Source: Clostridiales bacterium
GTDB lineage: Bacteria > Actinomycetota > Coriobacteriia > Anaerosomatales > SLCP01
DNA: 48,521 nt
Direction of reading: 5' to 3'
NCBI GenBank assembly: GCA_018333995.1
Contig: JAGXSG010000030.1
Location: 1 to 48,521 of the forward strand
Shown here: one piece after another, positions 1,740 through 31,074 of the stretch
How the letters are laid out: each line of letters opens with the position of its first letter
How positions within the stretch are numbered: position 1 is the first letter of the stretch
Translations under genes and position numbers: made by a program
The notes under the pieces: generated by a model
The model's input: only the letters and a program-made list of their open reading frames with translations
Databases searched by the model: none
Told to the model about the DNA's origin: nothing

Positions 1740-3665
1740 TCAGCGCGCGCGGGACTTCCTTCCCCCGGTCCCAAGGCGACTCATGAGGGCGTCGTCAGGC
1801 AGCCCGTTCTTACTCCAGCCGCGCTGACGGTAGTAGTCGCGCTTGAGCGACTCGAGCGGCACAGCGCCCCTCCCGCCGCCGTCCGGCTCTTGCTCACGTG
1901 TCAGCCGCTCCGGCAGGGTGTCGGCCGAACTGTCGACGCCAAAACGTGCCTGCAGCGCCCGCTCGAGATTGTAGGCGCGTTCACCGACCGCCCAAAAACC
2001 GCCGAAGCCATACCGCTCACCGGTCGCGAGTTCGATCGCCCTGATATGCGGGATAAGAGGCATGGGGATGCGGAGAAGGCCCCGTGGCGCGATGCGCATC
2101 AGCCGCAGCACAACGGCCGCATGCCGGAAGAGGATCGCAGCCGAGCGGCCCCAGGCGCTCTTGGGCGTCGCAACGAGCGAGCCGGGCAGGACGCCGAGCG
2201 TGGTGAAAAGACAGCTCCCCGCCGAGGAAATCGCCTCCATGAGGTCCTGGAAGAGCACCACCAGCGCCGCCTTGCCCTTCGGTGAACGGCCGTCCATCCG
2301 CAGAGCGAGCCCTTCGAGGGCCACGCCGTAGCCGCCGCCAAGATGACACCCGCCGCGGTTGGCGACTGCGTACCCGAGACCCTGACCCACAGCCCGGCGT
2401 GGCTCGTACGCCGCGATTTCCAGACCCTTCACGTTCATGGCGAAATCGGCCCCACCGTAGCGCTCGGCCAGCGCCCGGCTTCCGTCGGCAAGCTCATCGC
2501 CCAGGCCGCGACGGTACGCGATGTCTTCGAAGGTCGCCGCCAGCCCGTCGGTTCTGCCGAACTCCAGTCCGTTGTCCCACAGCCCCCGCTCGGCGGCTTC
2601 CATGGCAAACGAGATCGTCCCGCCCGTGCTCATTGTGTCCAGGCCAAGCTCGTCGAGTATCTCGTTCCATTCGATGATCCGGTCGAGGTCAGGGTTGTCG
2701 AGGTTGGCGCCGAGCAACACGAGCGTTTCGAGCTCGGGTCCCTTGATGCGCCGACCATCGAGTTCAACCACTCTTCCGCAGCGGATAGGGCAGCTTGTGC
2801 AGCCGGCCGTATCCACGAGGCGCCGTGCCGCGAGGGCCTCCCCATCGATCTGCCCCGCGCCATCGAAACGTCCGTGTTTGAAGTTACGGGTTGCGACAAT
2901 TCCGAGATCTTGCATCGGCTTGAGGAACCCCGCGGTTCCTAGGCGCGGAAGTGAGCCGCCGGCGATCGGATGGGCTTTGAGCGCCGCGCTCCACTCCTTG
3001 ATGTGCTTGCTATAGCGTTCGGGCTCGGCGACGGGAGTCCTCCGGGTGCCCCAGGCGGCGATGCCTTTGAGGTTCTTCGAGCCGAACACCGCACCCATGC
3101 CGGCGCGGCCGGCGGCGCGGTCGTCTGAGAGAAGACACGCGTACGCGACGAGGTTCTCGCCGGCAGGCCCGGCGACGATGGTCCCGCAGCGTTTCCCGAC
3201 GCCCTTGCGGAGCGCGTCCTGGGCTGCGGTTGTCCTGAGTCCCCAGACATCTTTGGCGTCGTGAACGGTCACGCCTTCCTCGGCGATCTCGAGCCAGACA
3301 GGCTGTGCGGCAGCGCCTGTCACGATCAGTGCATCGTAGCCCGCACGTTTGAGGTGCGTGCCGAACGAGCCCCCGCAGTTCGAGGTGGCGGGCAGGCCGG
3401 TGAGCGGCGAGCGAGCCGCAACGCTGAAGCGGGATGACGACGGCGCGCCGGTGCCGGTAAGCGGCCCCGTTGAGATGACCAGTACGTTCCCCGGTTCGAG
3501 CGGGCCGGCATCTGTGGGCAGGATGTCCGCGAGTATGCGTGCCGCCATCGCCTTTCCGCCGAGCCAGGTCCGGTACTCCTCATCGCTCCAGGGGTAATCG
3601 CGAATCTCCCCGCTGCTCAGGTCGACAGCGAGCACGCGGCCCATCCAGCCGCCCCGCAGCGTCAC
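1740..3665 (-). CDS. aor: Aldehyde ferredoxin oxidoreductase (tungstopterin type)
   Basis: 641 residues, close to the usual 600-650. The enzyme oxidises aldehydes to acids with ferredoxin as acceptor, or runs in reverse, using a tungsten bis-pterin and one [4Fe-4S] cluster in the cytoplasm. The N-terminus carries the family opening MGRVLAVDLSSGEI; residues 95-116 hold the SNCGGSFGTHLKRAGYDA signature. Cluster cysteines are C289, C292, C296 (CTSCPIRC) and C485 (SAGSCLFTTLG). It starts with GTG, overlapping by 4 bp the stop of the iron alcohol dehydrogenase, so the two are translationally coupled. An internal ATG seven codons later is an alternative start. The AOR/ADH pairing suggests acid-aldehyde-alcohol interconversion. 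Substrate cannot be told from sequence; it could be a broad-range AOR. Confidence 0.93.
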   Translation of the reverse strand: MTLRGGWMGRVLAVDLSSGEIRDYPWSDEEYRTWLGGKAMAARILADILPTDAGPLEPGNVLVISTGPLTGTGAPSSSRFSVAARSPLTGLPATSNCGGSFGTHLKRAGYDALIVTGAAAQPVWLEIAEEGVTVHDAKDVWGLRTTAAQDALRKGVGKRCGTIVAGPAGENLVAYACLLSDDRAAGRAGMGAVFGSKNLKGIAAWGTRRTPVAEPERYSKHIKEWSAALKAHPIAGGSLPRLGTAGFLKPMQDLGIVATRNFKHGRFDGAGQIDGEALAARRLVDTAGCTSCPIRCGRVVELDGRRIKGPELETLVLLGANLDNPDLDRIIEWNEILDELGLDTMSTGGTISFAMEAAERGLWDNGLEFGRTDGLAATFEDIAYRRGLGDELADGSRALAERYGGADFAMNVKGLEIAAYEPRRAVGQGLGYAVANRGGCHLGGGYGVALEGLALRMDGRSPKGKAALVVLFQDLMEAISSAGSCLFTTLGVLPGSLVATPKSAWGRSAAILFRHAAVVLRLMRIAPRGLLRIPMPLIPHIRAIELATGERYGFGGFWAVGERAYNLERALQARFGVDSSADTLPERLTREQEPDGGGRGAVPLESLKRDYYRQRGWSKNGLPDDALMSRLGTGGRKSRAR

Positions 3666-17062: not shown

Positions 17063-18325
17063 TTAGTGCACCGCGCATGACAAGCAGGGGTCGTACGCGC
17101 GCACGAGTTGTTCGATCTGCTGCACGAATTCGGTTTCGGGAAGTCCAGCGACTGTAGGAGCGAACGCGCGCATGTCAGCCTCGAGGTTTGCGAGGTTTTG
17201 CGCTGTTGGGGTGATCACGTCGCCTGCGGTGATGACCCCGCTGTCGTCTATCGAGATGCCATGGTACAGGGTGCCGCGCGGCGCCTCGGTCGCGCCACGG
17301 CCGCTGCCGACGCGGATCTCGAAGGAGACCGGAGCGCTCGAGCCTGTGTTCTCGATGAGAGCCTCGCACAGGTGCGCACATCGCTGGGCGCAGTCGACGA
17401 GTTCGATCGCTTGGCAGAGGTTGTTGTGGAAGGTGTTGCGGGATGGACGGCTGAAACCCGCCTTCTCGGCGACAAGCTGCGCTGCTGGCATGAGTCGCTT
17501 CCACGAAAGGTTGACGCGGGCGAGCGCGCCAACGAGAAACGTCCGCCCATCGACAGTTGTGTGCTTCGCGTTGCTGTGGCTAACAACCGACTCGCTGAGG
17601 AACTCGGGATACTCGGAGACTGGACGGCGCCATCCAGCATCCATCGCACATACGTCGCCGTCGTAGATGGCGTAAGTATCCGGTGAAGACAGGCCGAGCA
17701 TGTCGCCGGAGGTTTCAAACTCCGGAACGGTGAAACCCGCGAACAGCTCCACCGTGTCGGCGGCGTCTCTCGCCGCGGCGTGCAGCCGCTCAGAGAAATC
17801 CGCGAGATCCGTCGTGCTCGGCTCGGCGGTGAATCCTCCGATGGCGGCGGTGACCGGGTGGACGGCGCGGCCTCCGATGAGCGTAGTGAGATCGTTTCCG
17901 AGCTTTTTCAGAGTGAGGGCGCGAGCGACGATATCGGGCCGAGTCCGTGCGAGCGGGAAGACGCTCGGAAGGCCCACATAGTCCGGCGCGGCGAACAGGT
18001 AGAGATGCGTAGCGTGATTTTGCAGGTACGATCCGTAGACGAGAAGCTCGCGCAACATCCTTGTACGCGGACTCACTTCGATGCCGAGAGCTGATTCCAC
18101 CGCCTTGATGCTCGTTAAGGTGTGGTTTGGCGAACAAATGCCGCAGATGCGGCTTGTGATGAGAGGCGCTTCATCGAACCGTCTGCCGATGATCATCGAC
18201 TCGAACAACCGTGCGGGCTCGACGATGTCCATCTGAATCCGTTCGACCATTCCGCTCGTGACGTCGACGGAGATGGTGCCGTGCCCTTCGATCCGCGCCA
18301 CATGCTCGACTGTCAGAGTGGTCAT
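17063..18325 (-). CDS. hydA: Group 3b-like [NiFe]-hydrogenase large (alpha) subunit
   Basis: 420 residues, cytoplasmic. It binds the NiFe(CN)2CO centre through C61 and C64 (RICGICSPNH) and C414 and C417 (DPCLSCAVH). The proton-path Glu is in RIEGHG. The protein stops exactly at His420: the codon after CAC is TAA. Most large subunits have a further peptide that a dedicated endopeptidase removes after this His; here none exists, so processing seems unnecessary. The gene is last in a four-gene set ordered as in hydBGDA sulfhydrogenases. The start overlaps the small-subunit stop by 4 bp. No maturation (hyp) genes are in the window. Confidence 0.95.
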   Translation of the reverse strand: MTTLTVEHVARIEGHGTISVDVTSGMVERIQMDIVEPARLFESMIIGRRFDEAPLITSRICGICSPNHTLTSIKAVESALGIEVSPRTRMLRELLVYGSYLQNHATHLYLFAAPDYVGLPSVFPLARTRPDIVARALTLKKLGNDLTTLIGGRAVHPVTAAIGGFTAEPSTTDLADFSERLHAAARDAADTVELFAGFTVPEFETSGDMLGLSSPDTYAIYDGDVCAMDAGWRRPVSEYPEFLSESVVSHSNAKHTTVDGRTFLVGALARVNLSWKRLMPAAQLVAEKAGFSRPSRNTFHNNLCQAIELVDCAQRCAHLCEALIENTGSSAPVSFEIRVGSGRGATEAPRGTLYHGISIDDSGVITAGDVITPTAQNLANLEADMRAFAPTVAGLPETEFVQQIEQLVRAYDPCLSCAVH

Positions 18326-19065
18326 CGATCCTCCGAAGCCGAGTTGTACAGGTCAAGAACGGACTCGAATGCCTCGGGATCCACCCCGTGTTCCGCCACG
18401 ATCAACCGGGCCGCTGCCATGTTTGCGTCCTTTGCTACTCCGCGACAACCGGTACAAGGCCTGCCGAGGGAGACGCATTTTGCGCCGCATCCGGTGCGCG
18501 TGACGAGTCCCAGACATACGATGCCGGCCTCGTACATGCAGGTGTTCTCAGCGATCTTGCATGCCGCGCACAGTGGCTCGCGTGGCGGACGGTTCGCCAT
18601 TCCCCGCAACGCTCGCTGCATGACCGTGACGAACTCCGCGGGATCGATCGGACATCCGGGCACGTGGTAATCGACTTGGATGACCGCGCTTACGGGCATC
18701 GGAGAGATTCGCCCACACGCGACATCAGAGCTGCGCTCTCCGTAGACGCGATCGGCGTGTCCCTCGAGGTCGCCGTGCGTGACGAGCGCGGGCAGCCCGC
18801 CGCCGGTGGCGCACGCGCCGATCGCGATGATGCCGCCTGCGGTCGCCCGCACCTTGCGTAGCAGCTCTACGTGGTCCCTGGTCGTGACCGCGCCTTCGAC
18901 TATGGCGACGTCGTACTCATCCGGCATGCGCCCGCTCGATGCAAGCTGCCAGTAGGAAAGATCGATCGTGCCTAACACGTCGAGGAGGTGGTCTTCCATA
19001 TTGGTCATCTGTACCTGACACCCGTAGTCGCTCGCAAGGCCGATTACCACGACACGGGCGGGCAC
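18322..19065 (-). CDS. hydD: [NiFe]-hydrogenase small (delta) subunit
   Basis: 247 residues, no Tat signal, so cytoplasmic. It carries FeS clusters between the NiFe site and the diaphorase. The proximal-cluster region reads ASDYGCQVQMTN: C16 is kept, but the usual first Cys of CxxC is D13. Other proximal ligands are in IGACATGG and HVPGCPIDP. C-terminal cysteines CAACKIAENTC, TGCGAKC and PCTGC supply two more [4Fe-4S] clusters. GTG start, with AGGAGG eight bases upstream; it follows the diaphorase stop with no gap (TAGGTG). The Asp at a proximal ligand position resembles the 3Cys/1Asp proximal cluster of actinobacterial-type hydrogenases, though those belong to a different group. Confidence 0.93.
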   Translation of the reverse strand: MPARVVVIGLASDYGCQVQMTNMEDHLLDVLGTIDLSYWQLASSGRMPDEYDVAIVEGAVTTRDHVELLRKVRATAGGIIAIGACATGGGLPALVTHGDLEGHADRVYGERSSDVACGRISPMPVSAVIQVDYHVPGCPIDPAEFVTVMQRALRGMANRPPREPLCAACKIAENTCMYEAGIVCLGLVTRTGCGAKCVSLGRPCTGCRGVAKDANMAAARLIVAEHGVDPEAFESVLDLYNSASEDR

Positions 19066-19926
19066 CTAGATCGCCTCCTGCAGGTTCATCGCTTCCCAGT
19101 AGTTGAATACTGGGCCGTCCACGCACGCGTACTGGTGCCCTACCCCGCAGTGTCCGCACTTGCCGATCCCGCACTTCATCCGCCGCTCGAAGCTCACATA
19201 GATGCGGTCGACGTCCATCTGCTTCTTGCGCATTTCGTCGATGACGTAGCGGTACATCACCGGCGGACCGCAGATCGCGCCGTACGTGCGTTGGGAGTCG
19301 ACTTCGATGCGGCCGAAGAGGCCCGTGACGAGTCCGACTTCGCCGTCCCACGTTTCGTCCGGATGGTCGACCGTCATGATCAGCTCGAAGTCCTCACGGT
19401 GCCGCCACATGTCAAACTGACGACGGAAAAGTACCTCGCCAGGGTTGCGCGAACCGTAGAGGATCGTCACCTTGCCAAAGCTGTGCCGTTCGTCATGGAT
19501 GTGATTGATGAGCGACTTCAGAGGCGCAATTCCCAGGCCGCCGGCTACCAGGAGCACGTCGTGCCCTTTCATCTCGTCGAAGGGAAAGCCCCGTCCAAAC
19601 GGCCCGCGCAGGCCCACGATGTCGCCGCAGTGCATGGCGTGGAGCGCGCCGGTCACGTCGCCCGAATCCCGGACGCACAATTCGATGAAGCCCTGTTTCG
19701 AGGGTGCCGAGGATATCGAGATCGGCGCCTCACCTACACCGAATATCGAGAGCTCAACGAATTGTCCCGCGTCAAAGTCGAAGGCGTCACGGACGTCGTC
19801 GTCGATGAGCCGGAATTCGAAGAGCTTCTCGGTATCAGTGAGTTCGGTGATCGAGGTGATCCGAGCGGACCAAGGCAGGTACGGGTTGGCTTTGAGTTTG
19901 CGGTAGGCCTGCGCGGTGTCCCTCAT
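19066..19926 (-). CDS. hydG: Hydrogenase diaphorase (gamma) subunit, FAD/NAD(P)-binding
   Basis: 286 residues of the ferredoxin-NADP reductase fold. FAD-binding segment GQFVELSIFGVGEAPISISS; nucleotide-binding GGLGIAPLKSLI; C-terminal NAD(P) motif CGPPVMYRYVIDEM. A [2Fe-2S] site of the PyrK/HydG type is formed by four Cys in MKCGIGKCGHCGVGHQYACV. It exchanges electrons between NAD(P)H and the FeS chain of the hydrogenase. The GVGEAPISISS variant is typical of sulfhydrogenase gamma subunits. It overlaps hydB by 4 bp. Choice of NADH or NADPH cannot be read with confidence from the sequence. Confidence 0.95.
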   Translation of the reverse strand: MRDTAQAYRKLKANPYLPWSARITSITELTDTEKLFEFRLIDDDVRDAFDFDAGQFVELSIFGVGEAPISISSAPSKQGFIELCVRDSGDVTGALHAMHCGDIVGLRGPFGRGFPFDEMKGHDVLLVAGGLGIAPLKSLINHIHDERHSFGKVTILYGSRNPGEVLFRRQFDMWRHREDFELIMTVDHPDETWDGEVGLVTGLFGRIEVDSQRTYGAICGPPVMYRYVIDEMRKKQMDVDRIYVSFERRMKCGIGKCGHCGVGHQYACVDGPVFNYWEAMNLQEAI

Positions 19927-20930
19927 TCATCTCCTCCAGATTGCAGGGCCGCGATCACGGTCCGCGGATCGATGCCTGCCTTGCACGCGCGCTCGCAACG
20001 AGCGCACCCGACGCAAAGCACTCGCTCGAACTTCGACAGGTAGCCCCACTGCTTGTGGTAGTAGCGGTACTTCACTCGGCTCGGGCGTGACCCTCGGAAG
20101 TTGTGTCCGTGAGCGACCTCGGCGAACTCGGAGAACTGGCAGCTGTCCCACGACCGGACACGTGATCCTTCTGTTCCGTCCGGCGAGAGGCGGTCTTTCA
20201 CGTCGAAGCAGTAGCACGTTGGACATACCATTGAGCACGCGCCACAGCTGAGGCAACGCTCGCCAAGCTCTTCCCATACGGGGTCGTCAAACTTCGCATC
20301 GAGCAACAGCGGCAACTGCGCGGTGTCGAGCTGTTGCGTGAAGGACGCCTTGAACGCGCGGATGACGCGCTGGTAATCGGCGGTGTCGGCGTCGTTGATC
20401 GCACGCGTCTCGACGTGGCTGTCCAACAGTTCAGCGCCTTCCACCGAGCGCACGGACACGAAGTACCGGTCCTCCAGGTCGGTGAGGAAGATGTCGAAAC
20501 CCCAGTGGACCTCGTCGGTGCCCCACGCGTTGCAAAAACAGGTGCCGCTCGGCGTACAGCCGATGCCCACGATGAGGGTGCTTTCCCTCCGGGAGCGGTA
20601 GTACGGATCCTCATACCCGCCGAGAAAGACGTTGTCCATCAGCATAAGCGCGTTGAGGTCGCACGAATGCAGTCCAAAGAGCACACGGCGTCCGGCTGGA
20701 ACAGCTGTCGCGGAAGCTTCGCCGTCGGTGACCGAGAACGACATGAGCTCCTCGGAGGGTGGCAGGAAGTACTTCTTGGCTGGCAGCAGCGTGGTGTCGT
20801 AGTCGAGCCGGAGGTCTTCCGGGTCCGCAATCGAGGCGAAGACGAAGTCGTCACCCTTCGCTACAGGGCCAATCACCTCGAAGTCTGTCGATAGCCCTCG
20901 AATGAGTTCGGCGATGCGGTCCTTTTCCAT
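19923..20930 (-). CDS. hydB: Hydrogenase beta subunit with two [4Fe-4S] clusters
   Basis: 335 residues from ATG 20928-20930; the frame continues upstream without a ribosome site and over the promoter, so the short form is chosen. Residues around 220-330 carry two ferredoxin-like cluster motifs, CLSCGACSMVCPTCYC and CVGCARCERACKAGIDP. The front part (FGLHSCDLNALMLMDNVF) is typical of HydB/AsrA, the electron-transfer subunits of group 3b hydrogenase and anaerobic sulfite reductase. First gene of the hydrogenase operon, with a clear promoter 75-100 bp upstream. Without a catalytic sulfite reductase subunit nearby, the hydrogenase role is the natural reading. Confidence 0.93.
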   Translation of the reverse strand: MEKDRIAELIRGLSTDFEVIGPVAKGDDFVFASIADPEDLRLDYDTTLLPAKKYFLPPSEELMSFSVTDGEASATAVPAGRRVLFGLHSCDLNALMLMDNVFLGGYEDPYYRSRRESTLIVGIGCTPSGTCFCNAWGTDEVHWGFDIFLTDLEDRYFVSVRSVEGAELLDSHVETRAINDADTADYQRVIRAFKASFTQQLDTAQLPLLLDAKFDDPVWEELGERCLSCGACSMVCPTCYCFDVKDRLSPDGTEGSRVRSWDSCQFSEFAEVAHGHNFRGSRPSRVKYRYYHKQWGYLSKFERVLCVGCARCERACKAGIDPRTVIAALQSGGDE

Positions 20931-20976
20931 GATGCGAAAGAACAAGTTCGTCCCCGATCCGCAACTGTTGATACGC

Positions 20977-20989
20977 CACGTGCGACGTG
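20977..20989. promoter_or_regulatory. Candidate operator in the hydrogenase leader
   Basis: CACGTGCGACGTG is a perfect 5-3-5 palindrome. It lies just downstream of the expected transcription start of hydBGDA, where a bound repressor would block transcription. The regulator is not identifiable. Confidence 0.35.
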
Positions 20990-21002
20990 CGCGGTCTGCG
21001 TG

Positions 21003-21031
21003 ATTGTAGTTGCCATCCAAGGCTCCGCCAA
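21003..21031 (-). promoter_or_regulatory. Sigma-70-type promoter of the hydrogenase operon
   Basis: On the minus strand TTGGCG (21026-21031) and TACAAT (21003-21008) are spaced by exactly 17 bp. The predicted start near 20996 leaves a leader of about 65 nt before the hydB ATG. The -35 box sits just beyond the end of the small membrane protein gene. Confidence 0.6.
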
Positions 21032-21033
21032 GG

Positions 21034-21318
21034 CTAGAGCAAGGCGGTCCAGAGCACTGCCGCAGCGGTGAGTCCACCCAAAGACAGGCCGAGTATCCCC
21101 CACCGGGCGTATCGCGTCGATAGGGTTAGCACGCCGGCGGCCATGCCGACGAACCACGCGAGCACGCCGATGGTTGCGATGACTTGGCCGAAGACGTCCG
21201 TAGCGGCCTCGCTTCCGCCCATGGCCCAGGATCCGGCCGAGGCGGCCAGTGAGGCACCGCACCCGATAACACACACCGCGGCCATCATCTTGCTGGAGAT
21301 GAGACGCTTTTTGGGCAC
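21034..21318 (-). CDS. Small membrane protein of unknown function
   Basis: 94 residues from a GTG start preceded by GAGAGGAG seven bases upstream. Three hydrophobic segments: MMAAVCVIGCGASLAASAG, VFGQVIATIGVLAWFVGMAA and YARWGILGLSLGGLTAAAVL. There are no catalytic motifs or cysteine clusters. The good ribosome site and hydrophobic pattern support a real gene. It is on the same strand as the hydrogenase genes, but a strong promoter separates them, so co-function is only a possibility. Family not recognised. Confidence 0.65.
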   Translation of the reverse strand: MPKKRLISSKMMAAVCVIGCGASLAASAGSWAMGGSEAATDVFGQVIATIGVLAWFVGMAAGVLTLSTRYARWGILGLSLGGLTAAAVLWTALL

Positions 21319-26712: not shown

Positions 26713-28990
<2,278 letters not shown>

Positions 28991-29024: not shown

Positions 29025-29627
29025 TCACTGCAACGGAACGGTGGGTTCATGACACTCGGTGCAGCCGTCTTCCTCGAAACGCCGATGGTTGTCGGGGAGT
29101 GAGTTGCGCTCTCCGGACTGGTGACAGAAGAGACACTCCCTGAAGTAGCCGTCGAGCGGATGAGGGACCGGTCCGGCGTAAGCTCGCGTAAGTCCCGCCG
29201 GCGCGGGCTCGCGCGACGCGGAGCGCGGGTCGACGGGGTGGCAGAGCAGGCATTCGTACGTCTCGAAAGCGAGATGCCCGGCGGGCATCCCGAGATCCCG
29301 CCCGGGATCGCCGTGGCAGTGCAGGCACCGTTCGTCACCCATCGCGACTGAGTGCGGCACGAGGACACGGGGTGCCTGACGGTGGCACGAGCCGCACGTG
29401 GGGACAGCGTAGTTGCGGTGTGTGACCGGGATAGTGCCGAGGGCGACAGCATGACACTCGAGGCAGGGTTCCGTGCGCTCGAGACCCGCGTGCGGATTTC
29501 TCGGCACGGGGGCCGTGCCTACTTCGCTGGGGGTGAGTGCCGCAGCCGCCAGAGCGAAGAGCACAGACGCGCTCGCGAACAGCCCGATGAGTAGCAGCAC
29601 GGCCGTGGAGACGATACGGTGGTTCAC
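29025..29627 (-). CDS. Hexaheme cytochrome c, membrane-anchored or secreted
   Basis: 200 residues with six CxxCH heme-binding motifs at C55, C78, C101, C126, C165 and C189 (CLECH, CGSCH, CLHCH, CLLCH, CLFCH, CTECH). Residues 8-30 form one hydrophobic helix (AVLLLIGLFASASVLFALAA), a signal anchor or uncleaved signal. Additional histidines (HRNYA, PHSVA, GHLAF, DNHRRF) can serve as sixth ligands, fitting bis-His hemes. The protein should lie outside the cytoplasmic membrane. It begins 10 bp after the stop of the flavo-heme reductase, so the two are one operon and likely exchange electrons. The sequence does not match NrfA or NapC closely. Confidence 0.92.
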   Translation of the reverse strand: MNHRIVSTAVLLLIGLFASASVLFALAAAALTPSEVGTAPVPRNPHAGLERTEPCLECHAVALGTIPVTHRNYAVPTCGSCHRQAPRVLVPHSVAMGDERCLHCHGDPGRDLGMPAGHLAFETYECLLCHPVDPRSASREPAPAGLTRAYAGPVPHPLDGYFRECLFCHQSGERNSLPDNHRRFEEDGCTECHEPTVPLQ

Positions 29628-29637
29628 GACAGATCAC

Positions 29638-31074
29638 CTACACCATGTCGAAGCGTTCGGTGTGGACGCGATGTCCCGGAACGCCGATCTGGGGCAACAC
29701 CTTTTCCATCGCATCCATGAGCGGGGTGGGTCCGCAGATGAAGTACTGAAAGCGCCGGTACAGGTTGGGGGGCAGGTGACGGCAGAGTATCTCGGCGGTG
29801 ACGAAGCCGCGCTCCCCGGTCCATCCTTCATCGGCGCTGAGCACCACGTTCACGAGCGTGAAGTTCTCCATCCGGTCCGCCATCTCGGCAAGCTCCTCTC
29901 GGAAGGTGAGGTCGTCGTAGTCGTTCGCGGCGTGAAAGAGGTAGACAGGCCTCACGTCACCGCGCGTCTCGAGCGCTTGAATCATCGCGTAGAGAGGCGT
30001 AATGCCCACCCCGCCGCCGATAAGGACGAACCCGGCGCCTTCTTCGCGGTCGATGGTGAATACGCCGTGCGGACCATCAACCCACGCCCGGGTGCCCGGT
30101 TCGATGGTGGGGACGACATCGGTAGACCAGTCGCCGAGCTGTTTGATCGTGAAGGCGATGGTGCCGTCGTGGCTCGGCACGTCCCCGTTTGAAGAGAACG
30201 AGATGGGATGCTGGGTGGGCACGAACGGGTTGCGCCCGAACCCCAGCCACGCGAACTGCCCGGGCTCGAACAGGAAGCCCTCGTGTCCGATAGGGCGAAG
30301 GACGAGCGTCGTGGAGCGTCCGTGCTCGGCCCGGTTCTCGACTACCTCCCAGGGGTGTCTGAGCAGCTGGATCGGGCGGATGAGTCGGTAGCGCAAGAAC
30401 ATGAGCACAAAAGTGATGAGATACGCGGTCCAAAGGACACGCATCGCCGGGTGAGCGGCGAGCCGTCCCAGGCCCAAGACGTGCGCTCCAGCAAACCCGA
30501 TGAGCGCTATGGAGAGCAGTCCGTGCGAGACCTGCCATACCTCGTAGGAAAGGCGGATCTGCCGCCGGAACACGGACAGTCCCACCACGAGCATCGCCAA
30601 CGCGAGCGCGGCCATCCCGGCGATGACAGGCCACGGTGATGTAGCTGACGGGATGAGGACGCTCGGCGGGTAGGCGCTGTTCACGAGGAGCAGGAGAGGG
30701 TGGATCACCGCGAGTGCGAAGGCGGCGATGCCGATCTGCCGGTGGAACTGCAGAAGCGAGTCAAGTCCGAAGGCGCCGGCGACACCTCCGAAGCGCGAGA
30801 CAAGCGCAAGCTCGGTCGCCATGAGTGCGAGCGCGATGTAGCCAGTCGCGATAGAGAGGTAGACGAATGGCCCCGCCCCTTGTTCGGCGTCGAAGAGGAC
30901 AGCGCCGGCGATAAGCGGGAAGAGGATGAGGGCCAGATAGAGCCCGAACCAAAACACGCCGCTGACTATGAGCCGCATGAACTCCCATCCCCTCTGCCAT
31001 GCGTTGGTCGCGTCCGCCCGAGAATTGCTGGACCAATCACCTGTAACCTTCATGGAGACTCTACCCGTAGGCAT
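29638..31074 (-). CDS. Ferric reductase-like transmembrane flavo-heme protein
   Basis: About 478 residues; the start may be 7 codons later (31053), neither site having a clear ribosome site. About six helices in residues 33-235 make a ferric-reductase-like domain. The heme b histidines are probably in LLQFHRQIGIAAFALAVIHP and EVWQVSHGLLS with GAHVLGLG. The C-terminal half is a ferredoxin-reductase module: FAD site PGQFAWLGFGRNPFVPTQHP, nucleotide site IGGGVGITPLYAMI and FICGPTPLMDAMEKVLPQIG. It should move electrons from cytosolic NAD(P)H through FAD and two b hemes to the outer face, where the hexaheme cytochrome encoded next would accept them. An NADPH-oxidase-like or metal-reductase role is also possible. 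Confidence 0.9.
   Translation of the reverse strand: MPTGRVSMKVTGDWSSNSRADATNAWQRGWEFMRLIVSGVFWFGLYLALILFPLIAGAVLFDAEQGAGPFVYLSIATGYIALALMATELALVSRFGGVAGAFGLDSLLQFHRQIGIAAFALAVIHPLLLLVNSAYPPSVLIPSATSPWPVIAGMAALALAMLVVGLSVFRRQIRLSYEVWQVSHGLLSIALIGFAGAHVLGLGRLAAHPAMRVLWTAYLITFVLMFLRYRLIRPIQLLRHPWEVVENRAEHGRSTTLVLRPIGHEGFLFEPGQFAWLGFGRNPFVPTQHPISFSSNGDVPSHDGTIAFTIKQLGDWSTDVVPTIEPGTRAWVDGPHGVFTIDREEGAGFVLIGGGVGITPLYAMIQALETRGDVRPVYLFHAANDYDDLTFREELAEMADRMENFTLVNVVLSADEGWTGERGFVTAEILCRHLPPNLYRRFQYFICGPTPLMDAMEKVLPQIGVPGHRVHTERFDMV

Follow-up and report, generated by a model that had tools for sequence, protein, structure and literature searches.

Two adjacent genes on the minus strand of the window (the whole 48,521-nucleotide stretch of DNA that was analyzed), one encoding a flavocytochrome of the NOX/ferric-reductase type and the other, after a gap of 10 bp, a hexaheme cytochrome c, probably form a dedicated transmembrane module for electron export, in which NAD(P)H, FAD, two b hemes and the hexaheme cytochrome c would be linked in that order. 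The arrangement itself, a flavo-heme reductase followed at 10 bp by a six-heme cytochrome, had been proposed in an earlier note on this DNA and is confirmed by domains, motifs and coordinates. We infer from there that the two proteins dock directly, which way the electrons flow, what accepts them downstream and what the pair does for the cell.

The reductase gene probably occupies positions 29638–30978 (minus strand, as for all features of the pair given below) and encodes 446 aa, because its close orthologs begin at the Met equivalent to that at 30978, most of them with a GCGAGGTA-type ribosome-binding site just upstream; the same Met start is found in all 11 other close orthologs that were aligned. 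The earlier note had begun the gene at 31074, which is 32 codons too early; the in-frame extension to this upstream ATG (30979–31074) lies outside the ORF in most close orthologs and is probably not translated. The cytochrome gene (29025–29627) starts with GTG and encodes 200 aa with six CXXCH motifs. Both genes are under selection, with dN/dS values that range from 0.03 to 0.19 for the reductase and from 0.09 to 0.28 for the cytochrome. A search for PHROG matches (phage origin) to the pair returned none, and no Rex-type operator upstream of it scored above shuffles. Convergent with the cytochrome gene lies a full-length catalase-peroxidase gene, katG (26744–28990, plus strand), which finds no support as a functional partner, being no conserved neighbour of the pair. 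Elsewhere on the minus strand the window carries genes for the alpha, gamma and beta subunits of an NAD(P)-linked NiFe (sulf)hydrogenase-like enzyme (17063–21077; HydA/ShyA, HydG/ShyC and HydB/ShyB types), another NAD(P)H-linked redox enzyme, and a gene of the aldehyde:ferredoxin oxidoreductase type (1740–3665).

Two Pfam matches define the reductase: the heme-binding membrane domain Ferric_reduct (PF01794; 30493–30846; E 2e-15, 57.2 bits vs a gathering cut-off of 28), which forms a six-helix core in the AF2 model, and the NAD(P)H-binding domain NAD_binding_1 (PF00175; 29704–30024; E 4e-22), which carries the motifs GGGVGITP and CGP. The concern that the protein might lack heme histidines is answered by the alignment, in which H79 (30742–30744), H93 (30700–30702), H152 (30523–30525) and H166 (30481–30483), together spanning 30481–30744 with H79 and H93, and likewise H152 and H166, 14 residues apart, are invariant in 19 homologs at identities down to 34%. 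The same four histidines coincide with those of SpNOX in a profile alignment and, by analogy, H79/H152 would bind the inner heme and H93/H166 the outer heme. In the AF2 model (mean pLDDT 80.8, pTM 0.73) six long helices are followed by the FAD and NAD domains. The best PDB matches of this model are SpNOX structures, with TM-scores of up to 0.76 (by target) at 16–18% identity, and the next are flavohemoglobins, DUOX1, NOX2 and NOX5. The reductase is therefore like SpNOX and bacterial NOX-like proteins in its six-helix core, its four matching heme histidines, its FAD and NAD(P)H domains and its fold, while being only 16–18% identical to SpNOX in the fold alignment and having an FAD-site motif, HPISF (30196–30210), that is a variant of the HPF[TS]x of NOX. 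The published filters for bacterial NOX comprise four heme histidines, an NADPH motif, an FAD motif H[PSA]F[TS][LIMV] and 3–7 transmembrane helices (PMC5676040). Four heme histidines, an NADPH motif (GVGITP) and, in the model, six long helices with a NOX fold are present in the reductase; the FAD motif is not, as the window has HPISF and the aligned close orthologs HPISF, HPICF or HPICL, although some distant relatives do have it. Because of this difference in the FAD motif the protein is, by its sequence, NOX-type or NOX-like and not a NOX proper. An acidic stretch, HAANDYDDL, after the second strand of the NAD domain may place it nearer to NADH than to NADPH enzymes; SpNOX takes both (PMC11564096).

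The cytochrome begins with a conserved MNHRIVS, followed by an N-terminal membrane helix (residues 5–31; 29535–29615; residues 2–31 in the AF2 model) whose hydropathy (Kyte-Doolittle 19-residue mean 2.54) far exceeds that of the remainder of the protein (at most 0.56). Because the first seven residues are more conserved (mean 86%) than the heme region (69%), this N-terminus appears to be a retained anchor and not a cleaved signal peptide. With an export or anchor helix and c-type heme sites, the protein is predicted to be an extracytoplasmic multiheme c-type cytochrome, which sets aside the worry that it might be cytosolic. Each of the six CXXCH motifs is preceded by an invariant His, at spacings that alternate between 9 and 8, in 14 of 14 cytochromes, a register that never arose when the window protein was shuffled 20,000 times around fixed heme motifs. 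The motifs fall into three tandem diheme units of the form H-x8-CXXCH...H-x7-CXXCH, starting at H46 and H70 (residues 46–82; 29382–29492), H92 and H118 (residues 92–130; 29238–29354) and H156 and H181 (residues 156–193; 29049–29162), an arrangement that is absent from every other multiheme ORF of the genome; the region 29049–29492 looks like an internal triplication of a diheme unit of 37–39 residues. Since twelve invariant histidines serve six hemes, six bis-His low-spin electron-transfer hemes are predicted. Such hemes are electron carriers to which neither peroxide nor O2 binds. Matches to the cytochrome c3/c7 models are borderline and partial (PF14537 and PF14522; 25.0 vs a cut-off of 25 and 24.1 vs 24.8), and no convincing solved structural relative was found in the PDB; the AF2 model, built from 14 sequences, reached a pLDDT of 47 and was therefore kept out of the fold search.

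That the pair might not be conserved was addressed by genome searches. In a protein search of 60 relatives, reductase orthologs of 60–77% identity were found in 11 genomes, and in 11/11 the ortholog is followed on its own strand by the gene for the six-heme cytochrome. A profile survey of the class, with one genome per sampled species as in all genome surveys here, found the cytochrome in 14 of 298 genomes with the reductase beside it each time; conversely, the cytochrome gene comes next after each of the 14 reductase orthologs with an identity of 60% or more. A divergent form of the reductase occurs without cytochrome in three genomes of the same class survey, and a cytochrome without reductase was found neither in the 298 class genomes nor in 396 phylum genomes, the latter containing no cytochrome homolog beyond the window's own. 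A scan of named genomes yielded two further pairs, L054 and L057, possibly identical to survey genomes G107 and G128. In the 14 genomes the pair is always adjacent, with an intergenic gap of 8–13 bp, and the reductase and cytochrome distance matrices are closely correlated (Mantel r 0.92; 0/10,000 permutations as high), a correlation for part of which shared host descent accounts. The pair is thus conserved and, in these surveys, confined to related subsurface Actinobacteria of a single order, Anaerosomatales (14/69 genomes sampled); as some 80% of the order is without it, iron reduction in the order does not centrally depend on it.

Flanking genes vary, and the conserved unit is therefore the two-gene pair itself. 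The genes ackA-xfp lie by the window's pair and those of two relatives, a citrate synthase gene in four others, and menaquinone genes of the mqnA/mqnE type flank the pair in another relative; at L063:3902-5847 the pair is divergent from futalosine-type menaquinone biosynthesis genes of the MqnA and MqnC/E types. The presence of acetate kinase-phosphoketolase or citrate synthase genes alongside gives a weak hint, compatible with redox balancing. Reductase relatives of 34–50% identity in Acidobacteria and Phycisphaerae have no multiheme neighbour, so the enzyme does not need the cytochrome everywhere. Neither a flavinylated nor a multiheme partner was seen beside the cytochrome-less relatives, and neighbour clustering and inspection by eye turned up neither an ApbE gene nor one for an FMN-binding protein next to the pair or to its relatives. 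Two cytochrome-less relatives, L059:1617-4076 (an Acidobacteria MAG) and L045:10874-13549 (Anaerosomatales), adjoin a gene of the PEP synthase type (PPDK_N, PEP-utilizers), a hint that the reductase family may have another association as well.

In the export mechanism proposed here, hydride from NAD(P)H would be taken up by the reductase through its cytosolic FAD/NAD(P)H domain, and single electrons would pass from the inner b heme (H79/H152) to the outer b heme (H93/H166) and from there to the hexaheme cytochrome c instead of to O2. The cytochrome, which its N-terminal helix would keep on the outer side of the membrane, would relay them through its six bis-His hemes to other extracytoplasmic carriers, for example the larger multihemes of the host, and so to Fe(III) or similar acceptors. 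NOX enzymes move electrons outward without protons and in doing so lower the membrane potential. As electrons leaving through the pair would likewise exit without protons, so that membrane potential would be spent and not built, the pair would be a redox outlet or a supply of reductant and not a pump; its likely role is to dispose of excess reducing power or to provide reductant outside the cytoplasm, not to conserve energy directly. A precedent for transfer into a cytochrome is offered by SpNOX, which reduces cytochrome c directly under anoxia, without O2 (PMC5676040, PMC11564096), and whose variants H69A-H129A and H83A-H142A are inactive (PMC5676040).

The earlier note had let two proteins suffice for the whole way to the cell surface. 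The first part of this route, from cytosolic NAD(P)H to the outer membrane face, is upheld by the anatomy and the strict co-conservation of the pair; the last step is not, as cultured Anaerosomatales, which are strict anaerobes with pili-like appendages, have a Gram-positive wall (PMC9686372) and an anchored cytochrome of 200 aa stops at the membrane's outer face, so that further carriers would be needed. The host genome (1.95 Mb) contains 38 ORFs in which CXXCH occurs three or more times, that is, about 37 besides the paired cytochrome, as well as a match to ResB (c-heme maturation/attachment), and so has both heme-attachment machinery and candidate acceptors. Two of its multiheme ORFs, one of 1896 aa with 11 CXXCH (G000:C16:41706-47396) and one of 1187 aa with 13 CXXCH (G000:C21:32384-35947), are candidate carriers of electrons through the wall. 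The claim that the route dispenses with quinone agrees with the logic of the module, but the host does have futalosine-type menaquinone genes (mqnA, two of the CofH/MqnC type and UbiA-type prenyltransferases). In both cultured Anaerosomatales respiratory quinones were undetected, and one of the two, Parvivirga, respires Fe(III) (PMC9686372).

Three other readings of the pair were weighed. The hexaheme cytochrome might itself be terminal, with soluble or chelated Fe(III) close to the membrane as its direct acceptor and no further cytochromes behind it, and the pair would then be an assimilatory or dissimilatory ferric-reductase unit. The PF01794 family includes ferric reductases, some MsrQ-like NAD-binding proteins adjoin the VIT1 iron transporter (PMC8238504), and SpNOX has a slow anaerobic ferric reductase activity (PMC11564096). 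This reading is nevertheless unlikely: soluble Fe(III) is usually reducible without multiheme relays, neither an iron transporter nor a siderophore gene is seen among the pair's conserved neighbours, and the many larger multihemes of the host could take the electrons over. It is very improbable that electrons flow inward, from outside to NAD+, or that the hexaheme supplies a specific extracytoplasmic reductase in the manner of MsrPQ, since the conserved neighbours of the pair include no reductase gene and NOX-type flavin chemistry favours outward flow, even though MsrQ feeds MsrP (PMC5676040) and MsrQ-like NAD-binding proteins feed flavinylated partners (PMC8238504). The disposal of peroxide or oxygen beside katG, also entertained in the earlier note, and with it the reading of the reductase as a superoxide- or O2-reducing NOX, with the cytochrome scavenging its products or feeding a katG-linked peroxidase function, is very improbable despite the NOX fold and the katG next door, because katG is convergent and not conserved as a neighbour, the invariant candidate second His at all six predicted bis-His c hemes leaves no open catalytic site for peroxide or O2, HPISF departs from the strict NOX FAD motif, and cultured relatives are strict anaerobes (PMC9686372).

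The export module preferred here differs from SpNOX in that no protein acceptor is known for the latter, whereas a candidate acceptor is encoded next door in the pair. MsrPQ is likewise a system in which a heme membrane protein of the NOX family feeds an extracytoplasmic redox protein; MsrQ, however, has no FAD/NAD domain fused to it, and MsrP is a molybdoenzyme. CymA, CbcL and ImcH, the inner-membrane entry points for multiheme extracellular electron transfer, oxidise quinol, in contrast to the direct oxidation of NAD(P)H proposed for the pair. Listeria-type EET (Ndh2-EetAB-PplA) proceeds via quinone and flavoproteins with no multiheme cytochrome; it shares with the pair NADH-fed electron export in a Gram-positive setting, and the multiheme cytochrome is found only in the latter. 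Rnf, an ion-pumping multi-subunit ferredoxin enzyme, is unrelated to NOX. The Rnf-MmcA system of Methanosarcina acetivorans (PMC6703419, PMC11024163) nonetheless also joins a membrane oxidiser of a cytosolic carrier to a multiheme cytochrome and skips quinone. Systems of MsrQ-like proteins with a C-terminal NAD-binding domain (PMC8238504) have in common with the pair both PF01794 and PF00175 and a proposed flow of electrons from NAD(P)H to a carrier outside the cytosol; there the partner is an FMN-binding protein, here it is a hexaheme cytochrome c. These flavinylated systems comprise 1,437 clusters with PF00175 and occur broadly in Actinobacteria, and in related systems cytochromes and flavinylated proteins interchange (PMC8238504). 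In the literature searched, of which coverage was partial, no multiheme cytochrome was found described as the partner of a NOX-type reductase. The kind of reductase is already known, and what appears to be new, judged from sequence, is a multiheme c partner for a NOX/MsrQ-like NAD(P)H reductase, replacing MsrP or a flavinylated protein.

Which acceptor bacterial NOX-like proteins use in the cell is not settled, and SpNOX may have a protein acceptor (PMC5676040, PMC11564096); the pair supplies a specific, genetically linked candidate for this family. The chances are about even that a NOX-family enzyme here has a hexaheme cytochrome c, and not O2, as its natural acceptor and provides an NAD(P)H-driven, quinone-independent entry into Gram-positive multiheme extracellular electron transfer. 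If so, multiheme electron export would in these organisms be fed straight from NAD(P)H, bypassing quinone.
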